From NCBI RefSeq assembly GCF_030813915.1, contig NZ_JAUSUJ010000013.1:62001-126000 (forward strand): a stretch of 64,000 nucleotides of DNA, written 5' to 3'. Position numbers and translations under genes: made by a program. Positions 58,502-62,735 of this stretch are shown piece after piece. The stretch's first letter is position 1, and each line of letters opens with the position of its first letter. Source of the DNA: Rhodoplanes tepidamans (lineage in GTDB: Bacteria; Pseudomonadota; Alphaproteobacteria; Rhizobiales; Xanthobacteraceae). The notes beneath the pieces are model-generated. The model did not search any database. It worked only from the letters and a program-made list of their open reading frames with translations, and was not told where the DNA came from.

Positions 58502-58972
58502 ATGGATCGAATCGACCAGAAAATACTCGATCTCCTGCAGGGAGACGCCACGCTGCCGATCGCCGCCATCGCCGAGAAGGTGGGCCTCTCCACGGCGCCG
58601 TGCTGGCGGCGGATCAGGAAGCTGGAGGACGACGGCGTCATCCAGCGCCGGGTTGCGCTGGTCGACCGCCGCAAGGTGAACGTGCCGATGACGCTGTTCG
58701 TCTCGGTGCGCACCACCCGCCACGCGCTGGAATGGGTCGACGACTTCCGCGGCATGATCGCCGACATCCCGGAGATCGTCGAGGTGTGGCGGCTGACCGG
58801 CGACGTCGACTATCTGCTGCGCATCGTGGTGCCCGACATCGACGCCTACGACGCCGTCTACAAGCGCATGATCGACCGCGTCGAGCTCGCCGACGTCTCG
58901 TCCGCCATCGCCATGGAGGAGCTGAAATACACCACCGCCGTGCCGACCGGCTACATCGCGAAGACGCGGTGA
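58502..58972 (+). CDS. Lrp/AsnC family transcriptional regulator
   Basis: 156 residues: an N-terminal winged helix-turn-helix (about 1-60, IAAIAEKVGLSTAPCWRRIRKLEDDGVI) and a C-terminal RAM ligand-binding domain (about 65-145). Amino acids are the usual effectors. Its gene is divergent from the racemase gene, so it probably controls the 49.7-58.3 kb catabolic run and itself. The ATG at 58502 starts the conserved MDRIDQKILDLLQ. Confidence 0.92.
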   Translation: MDRIDQKILDLLQGDATLPIAAIAEKVGLSTAPCWRRIRKLEDDGVIQRRVALVDRRKVNVPMTLFVSVRTTRHALEWVDDFRGMIADIPEIVEVWRLTGDVDYLLRIVVPDIDAYDAVYKRMIDRVELADVSSAIAMEELKYTTAVPTGYIAKTR

Positions 58973-59057
58973 GGACGGGCGAGCGCCGCGGCACTACTTT
59001 TGATTGCATGCCAGATATGAGTGTCGTAAACGCTTCTCGCGATCCGAGGGGCACGAG

Positions 59058-59966
59058 ATGGTCGGCGGGCGGTTTGTCGGAAGCAAGAGAACAGAGGAAA
59101 AGCTCCGAGTCGTAAGGGACTATTTGGCTGCATATACGAAAGCCCTCAAAGGTAAATACTTTCTGATCTACATCGATGCTTTTGCAGGCACAGGAGATTA
59201 TGCACTCGATCGTGGCGATGCCGGGCTGTTCTCTGGAACAGGCGACACCGAGGGACTCGTCACGCGCCCGGGCTCGGCAAAACTGGCGCTCGAACTGGAA
59301 CCTGGTTTCGACAAGCTGATCTTCATCGACAAGGACAGGGACAGCATCGCATCGCTCGAGCGGATAAGAGAACAAAATCCCGGAAAGCTCATTGAAATCC
59401 GCGCAGAGGATTCCAACGCGGCGGTGAGGGCAATATGCTCGGACACCCGTTGGGATTCACGCCGCGGCCGTCTTCTCGGAACTCGAGCAGTCACCTTCCT
59501 CGACCCTTTCGCACTGTCGGTTGAATGGGAAACGCTCGTCGCGATAGGCCGGACCAGGGCGATCGATCTCTGGTACCTCTTCCCGACGAATGCCGTCGGC
59601 CGCCTTCTCGCAAACAACCCGGAGGCGATCCGGGCAGGCTGGGAGGCCAGGCTCAATGCAATCCTCGGCGGCCCATGGTGGCGGGAGGAACTGTACGCAC
59701 CCTTCTCGAAACAGCCGGATCTCTTCGCGTCGACGGAATGCTCCAAGGAGGAGAAACGCGTCGCAAGACCAGAGGACGTAGTCCGCCGGTTCATATCGAA
59801 GCTCGAATGCCACTTCGCTTATGTCGCCGACCGGCCCAGGGACCTCAAAAGGAACAACCAGCCCCGCTTCTCGCTGGTTTTTGCCGTGGCGAATCCGAGT
59901 CGGGGCGCGATCGACCTCGCCAAACGCGTCTCCGATCACATTCTGAAAAACCAAACCAAGGCCTAG
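59058..59966 (+). CDS. Three-Cys-motif partner protein TcmP
   Basis: 302 residues. The start (TEEKLRVVRDYLAAYTKALKG) and YIDAFAGTGDY (38-48, like SAM-binding motif I), with FLDPFALSVEW (147-157, like the D-P-P-Y/F motif of methyltransferases), match the TcmP family, which is regularly encoded beside DUF5131 (three-Cys-motif) proteins and has unknown function. The ATG at 59058 follows GAGGGG. Codons are clearly A/T-richer than in flanking genes (many AAA, GCA, ATA). Its stop codon overlaps that of the convergent DUF5131 gene in the shared bases CTAG. Confidence 0.85.
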   Translation: MVGGRFVGSKRTEEKLRVVRDYLAAYTKALKGKYFLIYIDAFAGTGDYALDRGDAGLFSGTGDTEGLVTRPGSAKLALELEPGFDKLIFIDKDRDSIASLERIREQNPGKLIEIRAEDSNAAVRAICSDTRWDSRRGRLLGTRAVTFLDPFALSVEWETLVAIGRTRAIDLWYLFPTNAVGRLLANNPEAIRAGWEARLNAILGGPWWREELYAPFSKQPDLFASTECSKEEKRVARPEDVVRRFISKLECHFAYVADRPRDLKRNNQPRFSLVFAVANPSRGAIDLAKRVSDHILKNQTKA

Positions 59967-60802
59967 GCGACGGACTTCTCTGGCTTCATTGCAGTTCCCG
60001 TTTTCGGGAAGTCCCTGATCAATCTCCCGTCGATCATTCCCCCACCTTTTCCATGTGGATCGATGACGCGGGCGCCGAGTTCGTCAATTCCGGCTTCGCT
60101 GACCAGAGGATTGCTCCTGTAGGTGCCCCATTGTTTCAGAAACGGCGCAACTCGACGGGCACGGCAATCCGCGATGATATCTCTCGCCCACTGCGCCTGC
60201 ATCGATCGTGCCCGCCCTCCGCTTTCGCCTCCACATATCAACCAATCGGGCCAAGGTCCGCACGCTGGCAGTCTAAGCGGACCGACAGCGGGCTCGTATG
60301 AGACGAAACGGACCACCGCCGGTATGGCGACGAGATGCGGCCACCGCTGATCAAAACGCTCCTGATCCTCCGCGGTGGTGCCCAGCCAGACATTCGAATA
60401 TCCGGCTCTCCAATCGGCAGGCAGCATCTTCTCGATATTTTGAGGTCTCTTTGTCAGGAGCAACCAGTCCAAGCCTGGGCACTCCCGTATCAACTCGAAA
60501 AGGTCAGCACGCCACTCCGTCGGAACCTTGTTGTCGAAAACATCGGCAAGGCTCGCGCAGAAAACGCGTTGGCGCCGCCCATGAGCAGTTCGGAAAAGCT
60601 CGGCACGCGCATTCCAGATACGCGGCGCTTTCCAATAGTCCGCAGTCGTCCTCCTCCGAGCGTGATTTCCCCACTGAACCAGTCCGGACCGCTTCGCCCA
60701 AGATTCAGCGTAGCAGTGGTCGCATCCAGGACTGATCTTCGTGCAGCCGGTCCAGGGATTGAACGTATGATCTGTCCATTCGATTTTTGACCGCTCGGCC
60801 AT
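59963..60802 (-). CDS. DUF5131 (phage Gp37/Gp68-like) three-Cys-motif protein
   Basis: 279 residues. The motif C20-x6-C27-x2-C30 (NPWTGCTKISPGCDHCYAE) is the named three-Cys motif; with its radical-SAM-like spacing it may bind an iron-sulfur cluster, but this is inference. Later conserved blocks include FCASLADVFDNKVP, LLTKRPQNI, NVWLGTTAEDQ and WLICGGESG. Family members occur in phages and bacteria with unknown activity. The convergent neighbour encodes its usual partner TcmP. Base composition is A/T-richer than in surrounding genes, suggesting transfer. Confidence 0.88.
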   Translation of the reverse strand: MAERSKIEWTDHTFNPWTGCTKISPGCDHCYAESWAKRSGLVQWGNHARRRTTADYWKAPRIWNARAELFRTAHGRRQRVFCASLADVFDNKVPTEWRADLFELIRECPGLDWLLLTKRPQNIEKMLPADWRAGYSNVWLGTTAEDQERFDQRWPHLVAIPAVVRFVSYEPAVGPLRLPACGPWPDWLICGGESGGRARSMQAQWARDIIADCRARRVAPFLKQWGTYRSNPLVSEAGIDELGARVIDPHGKGGGMIDGRLIRDFPKTGTAMKPEKSVA

Positions 60803-60894
60803 GGTCGTACGTCCTGTTGTGCGCGCGTCGGTCGAGCGTTCGGTCGAGAATCCACACCGAATCGAAATTGTTCCTCAACCAGGACGATAGCTGC

Positions 60895-61932
60895 TCACCC
60901 GAGCAGAAGCAGCCCCGCCGTCACCACCGCGAGGATCACCACGGTGGTCACGCACACCGTGACGAGGTGGCGCCAGCCGAGCATCTTCATGGCGGCGAGC
61001 GAGGTGCCGAGCCCGAGCGCCGCGATGGCGAGGAGCAGCATCGCCGTGGTGAGCCCGACCAGCAGATCCTTCGCGACCCCATAGAGGGGCGCGATCGCCG
61101 GCACGCCCGGCGCGACCGTGTTGACGACGCACAGCGCCAGGAACGCCAGGGCGAACACCGGCACCGGCGCCTTGGCGCCGCCGGGCGTCGCCTTCACCAT
61201 CCACCAGCCGATGGCGACGATCACGGGCAGCAGCAGGAAGACGCGGAACAGCTTGACGATCACGGCGGTGTTGCCGACCGGCTCGGACACCGCGTAGCCG
61301 GCGCCGACCACCTGGGCGACGTCGTGGATGGTGCCGCCGAGCAGGATGCCGGTCGCCTGCGGATCGAAGCCGAGCGCGGTGGCGAGCGGCGGATAGACCA
61401 CCATGGCGACGGTGGACAGCGCGTTGACGGCGACCACCACGAAGGCGATGTCGGCCTCGCGCCCCGGATAGGCCGGCACCACGGTCGCGGTGGCGAGCGT
61501 CGCCGAGGCGCCGCACACCGCCGTGCCCGCGCCGGCCAGCGCCCCGAAGCCGCGGGCGAGCCCGAAGGCGCCGGCGCACAGAAAGCCGGTCACCACCGTC
61601 GCCGCCATCGCGACCACCACGAGGACGGCCGACCACAGGCCGAGCGCCGCGATGTCGCCGAGCCCGATGCGCAGCCCGAGCAGCGCCACGGCCCAGCGCA
61701 GGATCGTCTTCACGCTCAGCACCAGACCGGGCTGGAAGGCCGGCCGGGCGGCGACGCGGTTGAGCGCGATGCCGATCAGCAGCGCCACCACCATGGCGGG
61801 GATCGGCGCCACCGGGGCGATCAGCGGCGCCAGCGCGACGGCCGCGACCGCGACCGCCCCGGCGAGGGCGAGGCCCGGGGCGACGGCGCGCGCCGCCGCG
61901 AGTCCGGTCGTGCGGGAGAGGGGCATGGACAT
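60895..61932 (-). CDS. YeiH family putative sulfate exporter
   Basis: 345 residues with about 10-11 membrane helices. VKTILRWAVALLGLRIGL, GAGTAVCGASATLATATVV and GGTIHDVAQVVGAGYAVS are the conserved blocks of the UPF0324/YeiH family, related to TauZ exporters proposed to export sulfite or sulfate. No LysR regulator gene adjoins it here. The start is ATG 61932 or ATG 61926. Confidence 0.86.
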   Translation of the reverse strand: MSMPLSRTTGLAAARAVAPGLALAGAVAVAAVALAPLIAPVAPIPAMVVALLIGIALNRVAARPAFQPGLVLSVKTILRWAVALLGLRIGLGDIAALGLWSAVLVVVAMAATVVTGFLCAGAFGLARGFGALAGAGTAVCGASATLATATVVPAYPGREADIAFVVVAVNALSTVAMVVYPPLATALGFDPQATGILLGGTIHDVAQVVGAGYAVSEPVGNTAVIVKLFRVFLLLPVIVAIGWWMVKATPGGAKAPVPVFALAFLALCVVNTVAPGVPAIAPLYGVAKDLLVGLTTAMLLLAIAALGLGTSLAAMKMLGWRHLVTVCVTTVVILAVVTAGLLLLG

Positions 61933-62058
61933 CGGGGGCTCGGTCGGGACCAGGAGGGCGCCCCCGCCCGGCGCGGCGAACGCATGCGGGAACCCGGGTA
62001 TCTAGGGGACGCCCGCGCGCACCGTCAACGCGGGCCGCGGCCGGCCGGGCGCGCCGCC

Positions 62059-62601
62059 TCACCCCGGCAGCAGCCGGTCGACGGCGGCGCGGCAGTCGCC
62101 GCAGATGCCGTAGCTCACCGCGATCGGCACCTCGGGCAGCTCGCCAAGGGTGGCCGGCTCGCGCCAGACGCCGTCGCGCAGCAGGCGGTTGCAGCTCGAG
62201 CAGCGGAACAGCATGCGGCCACGCGGCAGCCCGCTCGCCGAGAAGTTCAGCGGCAGCCGGAACGGCAGCGGGACGGTGCGCAGCTGCCGGTAGGCGATCA
62301 GCACCCCCTCGCCGGGCTCGGCCCGCAGGGTCATCTCCATGTGGCGCTCGCGGTCGGGCGAATCGCAGCGGAACGGCAGCACCACCGGGTCCTCGCGGCG
62401 CCGCACCCGCCACAGCACCGTGTCGAGCAGCGCACGGGTCGGCTCGCCGGTCACGTGGACGAGCAGGTCGGTGCCGAGCACCCGGGCGACCGTCGCGCTC
62501 GCGCCGTCGTTGCCGAGCGCGAAGGCGTCCCACGCACCGCCGACCCCGACGATCCGGTTGCGCCTGTCGAGCCGGCAGTAGAGCTCCTCCGGTGCCGTCA
62601 C
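62059..62601 (-). CDS. PAS-like protein with split zinc-ribbon (CxxC...CxxC)
   Basis: 180 residues. The N-terminal two thirds (LYCRLDRRNRIVGVGGAWDAFALGNDG) look like a PAS-type sensor domain; the C-terminal part has C134-SSC and C167-GDC, a pair that would bind zinc. It has no output domain. The start is GTG at 62601, set by GGAGGAGAAGGGC just upstream. It could be a small redox or metal sensor. The molybdate genes start 256 bases away in the opposite direction. Confidence 0.65.
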   Translation of the reverse strand: MTAPEELYCRLDRRNRIVGVGGAWDAFALGNDGASATVARVLGTDLLVHVTGEPTRALLDTVLWRVRRREDPVVLPFRCDSPDRERHMEMTLRAEPGEGVLIAYRQLRTVPLPFRLPLNFSASGLPRGRMLFRCSSCNRLLRDGVWREPATLGELPEVPIAVSYGICGDCRAAVDRLLPG

Positions 62602-62705
62602 GCCCTTCTCCTCCCGGCCGCGCCCCCGCGACCGGCGCCGACTGTCGCCGCGCCGCTCCGGGCGCGCAACCCCGATATCGACCGGAGTCGGCCGCGGCCC
62701 CGGGC

Positions 62706-62735
62706 TTGGCATCGGCGGGCCCGCCCCGCTATATT
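62706..62735 (+). promoter_or_regulatory. Sigma-70-like promoter of the mod operon
   Basis: TTGGCA (62706-62711), 18 bases, then TATATT (62730-62735). It lies about 120 bases upstream of modB. The CGCTATATT around the -10 resembles half of a ModE box, but the second half-site is poor. Confidence 0.45.

Follow-up and report, generated by a model that had tools for sequence, protein, structure and literature searches.

The DNA analysed here, referred to as the window, is a 64,000-nucleotide stretch of the Rhodoplanes tepidamans genome (contig NZ_JAUSUJ010000013.1, positions 62,001 to 126,000, forward strand). Between its lrp and yeiH genes it carries a block (58973 to 60894) that encodes a TcmP protein and a three-cysteine protein of the DUF5131 family. 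Comparison with related genomes, plasmids and viral contigs shows that the two families pair regularly, that the block bears signs of acquisition, that TcmP has the likely class of a methyltransferase and DUF5131 that of a radical S-adenosylmethionine (SAM)-type enzyme, and that the DUF5131 partner can be replaced. The block looks like a stand-alone cassette of two genes that was acquired from elsewhere and belongs to the TcmP/three-Cys kind catalogued as PDC-M41. Our best explanation is that it would encode two SAM-using, base-modifying enzymes that serve in defence, and on this explanation taken as a whole our judgement is evenly divided.

The TcmP/DUF5131 block and its insertion site

The pair recognised in the original prediction is confirmed, with both genes intact at the positions given there and stop codons that overlap in CTAG. 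The TcmP gene lies on the forward strand (59058 to 59966, with ATG at 59058 and stop at 59966) and encodes 302 amino acids of the short subtype (PDC-M41A). The DUF5131 gene converges on it from the reverse strand (59963 to 60802, with ATG at 60802 and stop at 59963) and encodes 279 amino acids (PDC-M41B); the 3' overlap is 4 bp (59963 to 59966). The motifs that had been read from the translations, FAGTG and DPF in TcmP and C-x6-C-x2-C in DUF5131, are also present. Motif I of TcmP is DAFAGTG (residues 40-46; 59175 to 59195, forward strand), which is predicted by homology to bind SAM, motif IV is LDPF (residues 148-151; 59499 to 59510, forward strand), and the DUF5131 cysteines C20-x6-C27-x2-C30 are encoded at 60713 to 60745 on the reverse strand. 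Window TcmP passes TIGR04474 (E = 5.7e-48; 164.1 bits against a curated cut-off of 53) and window DUF5131 passes PF07505 (E = 1.4e-73; 247.8 bits against a gathering cut-off of 28.9), and with such E-values the family matches are not due to chance.

The block had been described as A/T-richer than the genes around it, and GC content, third-position GC content (GC3) and codon adaptation, computed per gene, are all low in comparison with other genes of the window. GC content is 58.3% for TcmP and 58.5% for DUF5131, whereas the six flanking genes measured span 66-75.5%. GC3 is 0.677 and 0.632, respectively, against a mean of 0.912 (standard deviation 0.077) in 42 reference open reading frames (ORFs) of the window, a mean that is somewhat inflated because these ORFs were chosen by length and GC3 and only those with GC3 above 0.6 were retained. 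Codon adaptation is 0.355 for TcmP and 0.300 for DUF5131, against 0.72 (standard deviation 0.14) in the same reference ORFs, 2 of which are similarly low (0.359 and 0.366).

TcmP is present in 4 of 60 relatives, the source genome being counted among the 4, and in none of the five other genomes of the genus, one of which is just 58% complete. Homology to four same-genus genomes (G001 to G004) stops at 58958-58980 and restarts at 60897 in G004, 62066 in G003 and 62704 in G001, with no restart in G002 within the stretch of that genome compared; the predicted block limits agree with these ends and with the restart in G004. In the proposed presence/absence comparison, TcmP is absent from the five other genomes of the genus, but a clean, empty lrp-yeiH junction is found in none of the same-genus relatives compared. 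In G004, a RidA-like gene occupies the gap between lrp and yeiH (L076:3060-3581); its start resembles a signal peptide, both points being read from the translation. The yeiH gene is absent from the equivalent of window positions 60895-62712 in G001 and G003, and G001 also lacks nearly all of the 217-residue gene that follows yeiH. The absence of yeiH in two genomes and the different gene in a third indicate that the lrp-yeiH region is a variable site in the genus. Since lrp and yeiH face each other, each of the imported genes stands in line behind one of them. No convincing att-like repeats were found at the block edges, promoter and terminator counts are no higher than in shuffled sequences, and when plasmids were searched at the DNA level with the block plus flanking sequence, only short matches appeared (racemase genes, yeiH genes and unannotated DNA).

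Regular pairing and exchange of partners

Among 289 genomes of the class, TIGR04474 gives 18 matches above the cut-off in 17 genomes, and a PF07505 match lies within about 1 kb of 17 of these 18 (paired by coordinates). DUF5131 precedes TcmP in 11 pairs, the order is reversed in 3 and the genes are convergent in 3; the unpaired eighteenth TcmP (G340:C75) begins at a contig edge. Six weaker TIGR04474 matches were left out, two that were scanned being RlmJ, three aligning with those and one being an edge fragment. In the viral collection (IMG/VR), 104 stretches matched the patterns, 86 encode relatives, and the best 80 were kept, giving 79 loci. DUF5131 adjoins TcmP in 73 of the 79, one of them (L154) being weak with a score of 24.6; 49 pairs are convergent, 14 have DUF5131 first and 10 have TcmP first, while, of the remaining six loci, two are truncated by a contig edge and four lack DUF5131. 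The 3' ends overlap in all 49 convergent pairs (L101-L179; 4-75 bp, median 17), in loci that are not mutually independent. That the two are ordinary accessory genes which happen to be neighbours has nothing in its favour except that the function of the pair is not known, and adjacency in 17/18 and 73/79 cases, in two collections and three orientations, leads us to reject chance pairing as hardly credible. These comparisons support TcmP and DUF5131 as a real module.

The original prediction called the two families mutually associated. This stands on the TcmP side, where a three-Cys partner is found in all examined uncut loci, but not on the other, as DUF5131 often occurs without TcmP: of 39 PF07505 matches in 36 class genomes, 22 (some of them fragments) have no above-cut-off TcmP nearby. 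The occurrence of DUF5131 in phages, also predicted, is seen in 161 of 50,697 phage records, and window TcmP as the sole query retrieved no close relatives among viral contigs. Clustering of neighbouring genes gave no conserved third gene, with no further family in more than 17 of 177 loci when antisense frames and long TcmPs are set aside; several smaller clusters also resemble antisense frames. We rejected an apparent DUF5131 fusion in G025 (907-codon frame), as the domain starts at residue 663 and an ordinary start yields a gene of 249 amino acids.

PADLOC-DB v2.0.0 lists the pair as a phage defence candidate, PDC-M41, in which A is a short TcmP and B is DUF5131, and both window proteins match it side by side. 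Window TcmP matches PDC-M41A (PDLC04635) with E = 5.3e-71 and 238 bits over residues 7-299, and window DUF5131 matches PDC-M41B (PDLC04639) with E = 1.5e-53 and, nearly equally, PDC-M30B with 3.1e-51. PDC-M30 is a sister candidate in which A is a long TcmP and B is again DUF5131. Because of this near-equal match, and because the nearest paired relatives of window DUF5131 mostly have long TcmPs, the window pair mixes both catalogue types. Its DUF5131 is 71% identical to that of an Agrobacterium plasmid (L005), whose TcmP is of the long type and just 21% identical to window TcmP. The best match of the four long TcmPs scanned is PDC-M30A, and three of four longer TcmPs scanned have a C-terminal winged helix-turn-helix (PF22560), above the cut-off in one.

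Partner types, defined by length and score classes, were compared across a set of genome loci picked for their window-type DUF5131 (382 matching stretches and 368 relatives, of which the best 80 were retained). All of the closest 25 (DUF5131 identity 62-70%) adjoin a TcmP homologue, which is long in 16, short in 1 and diverged and low-scoring in 8. The other 55 (L230-L284) include 6 with a TcmP homologue and 49 without one in the DNA compared, where some contigs are short; one neighbour family recurs in six loci of the genome set, of which five lie within L230-L284. The TcmP and DUF5131 distances of 80 non-redundant pairs correlate (r = 0.42, against a highest value of 0.235 in 2000 permutations), which indicates that the two partly co-evolve. 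In a careful tree of 68 DUF5131 proteins, partner type needs 18 changes, a number below that of every one of 200 shuffles (mean 29.1), and is therefore clustered yet changeable; for the long type, at least 10 changes are required by well-supported branches on their own, and a quick tree of 142 rows gives 29 partner-type changes. Taken together, the comparison shows DUF5131 as having repeatedly switched the type of its TcmP partner. L206, from a Rhodospirillaceae metagenome-assembled genome, is the sole locus among the best 80 to combine high identity (TcmP 52.5%, DUF5131 69%) with the arrangement of the window (convergent, 3 bp apart). An integrase beside this pair was suspected from reading, and Pfam gave no confirmation.

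Exchange extends to the three-Cys protein itself. In four viral loci (L104, L114, L123 and L129) a different three-Cys protein lies directly 3' of TcmP in place of DUF5131; those of L104 and L114 match radical SAM models for PA0069 and Rv2578c (E = 6.6e-9 to 6e-13, with scores short of the curated thresholds), and those of L123 and L129 align with them. A Nostoc TcmP (L008) adjoins a radical SAM protein that, unlike window DUF5131, is a clear PF04055 member, and the BREX genes pglZ and brxL are less than 6 kb away. The PA0069/Rv2578c-type proteins take the same slot beside TcmP as DUF5131 and have profile similarity to it (E = 6.8e-6), with a cysteine spacing of C-x3-C-x3-C in the four viral proteins and C-x3-C-x2-C in Nostoc, compared with C-x6-C-x2-C in DUF5131. 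As various radical SAM proteins occupy this slot, the chemistry itself is likely the point.

Three of the viral loci (L114:4831-9395, L123:4820-10098 and L129:4820-9783) have a row of a long TcmP-like gene, TcmP, the PA0069-like radical SAM gene and a DNA methylase gene. The second, long TcmP-like protein was matched in L114, while that of L129 has no Pfam match; the methylases behind the radical SAM gene were assigned as N6_N4 type in L114 and L123. This row may be a restriction-type system that includes a radical SAM component. In the phage-like contig of L104 (2801-8407), a SAM synthetase gene lies upstream of TcmP, as if the element supplied its own SAM, and a terminase gene is present downstream.

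Predicted enzyme classes of the two proteins

TcmP had been called methyltransferase-like, and its profile matches to RlmJ, its SAM-site motifs and its Trm1- and RlmJ-like fold agree with this; we consider it likely to be a distant relative of RlmJ, the 23S rRNA m6A2030 methyltransferase (PF04378), with a class I methyltransferase fold. A 58-row TcmP profile matches RlmJ structures (E = 8e-5), and hhalign of TcmP against five RlmJ gives a probability of 97.2 (E = 3.3e-11). The AlphaFold2 model of window TcmP (predicted local distance difference test, pLDDT = 91.1; predicted template modelling score, pTM = 0.89) has the tRNA methyltransferase Trm1 as its best Foldseek match in the PDB (E = 2.8e-6), with ranks 4, 7, 8, 11, and 12 taken by RlmJ or its homologue LPL1258. 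D40, F42, G44, and G46 of motif I are kept in 58/58 aligned TcmP rows, as are D149 and P150, which align with the D-P of 5/5 RlmJ rows. Common to TcmP and RlmJ, with some exceptions, are motif I, the following G-S, the motif II/III acids, R143 and D149-P150. W172, a Trp in 46/58 TcmPs, aligns with a Trp of 5/5 RlmJ. The source genome also has an RlmJ of its own (G000:C38).

The C-x6-C-x2-C spacing is found in 95/95 paired DUF5131 proteins (those of 105 loci that passed the length filter), and the three cysteines are invariant in 54 aligned rows. The structure model of window DUF5131 (pLDDT = 83.8; pTM = 0.83) has spore photoproduct lyase as all six of its best PDB matches (best E = 6.3e-4), which makes this enzyme its nearest solved fold, by a weak match. 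Spore photoproduct lyase likewise has three clustered cysteines; it differs in that DUF5131 has the C-x6-C-x2-C spacing and the window protein matches neither PF04055 nor PF20903, the spore photoproduct lyase family, at E up to 1. Window DUF5131 is also homologous over residues 19-224 to radical SAM mobile pair protein A (TIGR04471; E = 4.8e-11, 42.6 bits against a cut-off of 355), which pairs with a second radical SAM protein where DUF5131 pairs with TcmP. An hhalign comparison with the set of replacement radical SAM partners superposes the Cys regions (probability 84.6, E = 6.8e-6). Given these three matches together with the missing PF04055 match, we term DUF5131 radical-SAM-like with non-canonical spacing. 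We are fairly confident of both predicted classes, methyltransferase for TcmP and radical-SAM-type for DUF5131.

The kin of TcmP may point to an RNA target and those of DUF5131 to a DNA target, and each side has its own alternative to the proposed defence cassette. One is an RNA-modifying module that alters host or phage rRNA or tRNA and shifts translation during infection or stress, with no strict defence role. It draws on the RNA base methyltransferases Trm1 and RlmJ among the best folds of TcmP and on RlmJ as its only sequence-profile match of note. In addition, an excerpt of PMC11619597 reports that T5 infectivity is lower on Escherichia coli without RlmF and RlmJ, the other T phages and lambda being unaffected, so such marks can matter to a phage. 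However, the closest fold of DUF5131 is a DNA enzyme, and DNA methylase and BREX genes lie near some loci, and we regard this module as rather unlikely. The other is a DNA-repair cassette in which an enzyme like spore photoproduct lyase reverses a base lesion and TcmP serves as an accessory or recognition subunit. In its favour, the solved folds nearest to DUF5131 are all six of this lyase, but TcmP retains SAM-site motifs that an accessory subunit would not need, and the patchy distribution (4 of 60 relatives) suits conflict genes better, which makes repair improbable.

Defence context and proposed action

The suggestion that the pair is a modification or anti-phage module coincides with the PDC-M41 entry and with some defence contexts, whereas the activity itself is predicted only; overall, the interpretation in the original prediction is partly supported. 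No paper naming DUF5131, PDC-M41, PF07505 or GMT-wHTH was found in the literature searched, and the literature excerpts on phage defence candidates name ones other than PDC-M41. Around the closest 25 genome loci, the neighbours include pAgo, a CBASS cyclase, NucC, PD-Lambda-5 and other candidates. These 141 genes from 25 loci were compared with 141 of 149 genes from 25 of 33 solitary-DUF5131 loci, with genes of 900 or more amino acids left out, crude ORF picking, and the top 25 families taken from 112 versus 74. We regard this comparison as suggestive, and the neighbour evidence as guilt by association. In Sinorhizobium meliloti 1021 pSymA (L100:5310-11130), a DEAD/ResIII helicase gene, which we take to be hna, precedes a short TcmP whose frame opens 27 bp on and whose likely start is about 0.1 kb on, and a long TcmP with DUF5131 lies convergent to this short TcmP. 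In an excerpt of PMC12445080, hna (SMa2245) and TcmP (SMa2243) are consecutive table entries, both showing a log2 change close to 1.

The neighbours of the viral pairs bear on a further alternative, namely self-marking or counter-defence, in which the pair modifies its carrier's DNA against host restriction and the copy on the chromosome would be a prophage pair that became domesticated. The pair is carried by phage-like contigs, and CI-like repressors (phrog_4) are the commonest neighbour family, with 9 of 109 genes, followed by other repressors and regulators; these 109 were retained from 135 picked neighbours after manual removal of near-duplicate loci and of some frames that overlapped the pair. 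Such neighbours fit an accessory gene of the lysogeny region in part of the viral loci. The N6_N4-type DNA methylase genes of L114 and L123 and the SAM synthetase gene of L104 also agree with self-marking. Against it, the scanned genes flanking the window pair are not phage genes, copies of the pair are also found on conjugative plasmids, and Trm1 and RlmJ, among the best matches of TcmP, act on RNA. We consider self-marking unlikely on balance.

A number of observations weigh against the proposed cassette of two base-modifying defence enzymes. On the TcmP side, the template modelling scores (TM-scores) of the Trm1 and RlmJ matches are modest (0.48 or less, normalised by TcmP), and AzeJ, EgtD and other small-molecule methyltransferases rank between Trm1 and RlmJ. 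Motif IV is DP[YF][GA] (DPFA in the window) versus DPPY in RlmJ, and PF04378, with its DPP(Y/F) motif IV, gives no match to window TcmP at E up to 1. An excerpt of PMC3814359 gives Y4, H6, K18 and D164 as essential in RlmJ and W195 as positioned for base stacking. The invariant K15 in the first helix of TcmP was expected to correspond to K18, but it aligns on Asn, and the essential N-terminal residues of RlmJ have no TcmP counterpart in the alignment. This offset and the different motif IV suggest that substrate and exact chemistry of TcmP may differ from those of RlmJ. On the DUF5131 side, the fold match is modest (TM-score 0.42, 13% identity, one match below E = 0.001), the canonical CX3CX2C is absent along with any PF04055 match, and the protein must act alone where it is solitary, which is common. 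TcmP matches in phages (H2-H4) and plasmids (H7, H8, and H10-H15) stand outside the partner counts. As for defence, two other PADLOC candidates showed no evidence of activity when tested, according to an excerpt of PMC12409345, the neighbour comparison consists of family tallies only, and the 25 top control families are mostly type II methyltransferases, which are defence-listed too.

With these points weighed, we infer that the two proteins of the cassette would use SAM, with an iron-sulfur cluster in DUF5131, and would act in order on a common substrate as a defence. TcmP would most likely methylate a base amino group in RNA or DNA, and DUF5131 would most likely use a [4Fe-4S] cluster and SAM for radical chemistry on that base or an adjacent one, both enzymes working in turn on one nucleic acid. 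The resulting product, modified or damaged, would then disable a competing phage, as superinfection exclusion where the pair is borne by a prophage and as host defence where it sits on a chromosome or plasmid. That SAM-using enzymes travel together, and that the second can be replaced by other radical SAM proteins, is best explained by a common substrate, which we lean towards with some reserve; on defence as the function we see the case as finely poised. A wider and more speculative idea, which we hold with considerable doubt, is that TcmP with any three-Cys radical SAM partner forms one mobile class of nucleic-acid-modifying immunity, in which the methyltransferase primes a base and a swappable partner converts or cross-links it, blocking replication or translation of the invader, with partner exchange tuning the base or the invader addressed.

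The pair was already catalogued as a candidate, and the enzyme identities put forward here are clearer than the catalogue names give, so that two families labelled "unknown function" and "partner protein" gain concrete, testable enzyme classes. If the proposal is wrong, the two families would at least be freed from a mistaken label. If it is true, radical SAM nucleobase chemistry would join methyltransferase marking as a mobile weapon between phages and bacteria, and the repeated exchange of partners would let one ask which half sets the specificity.

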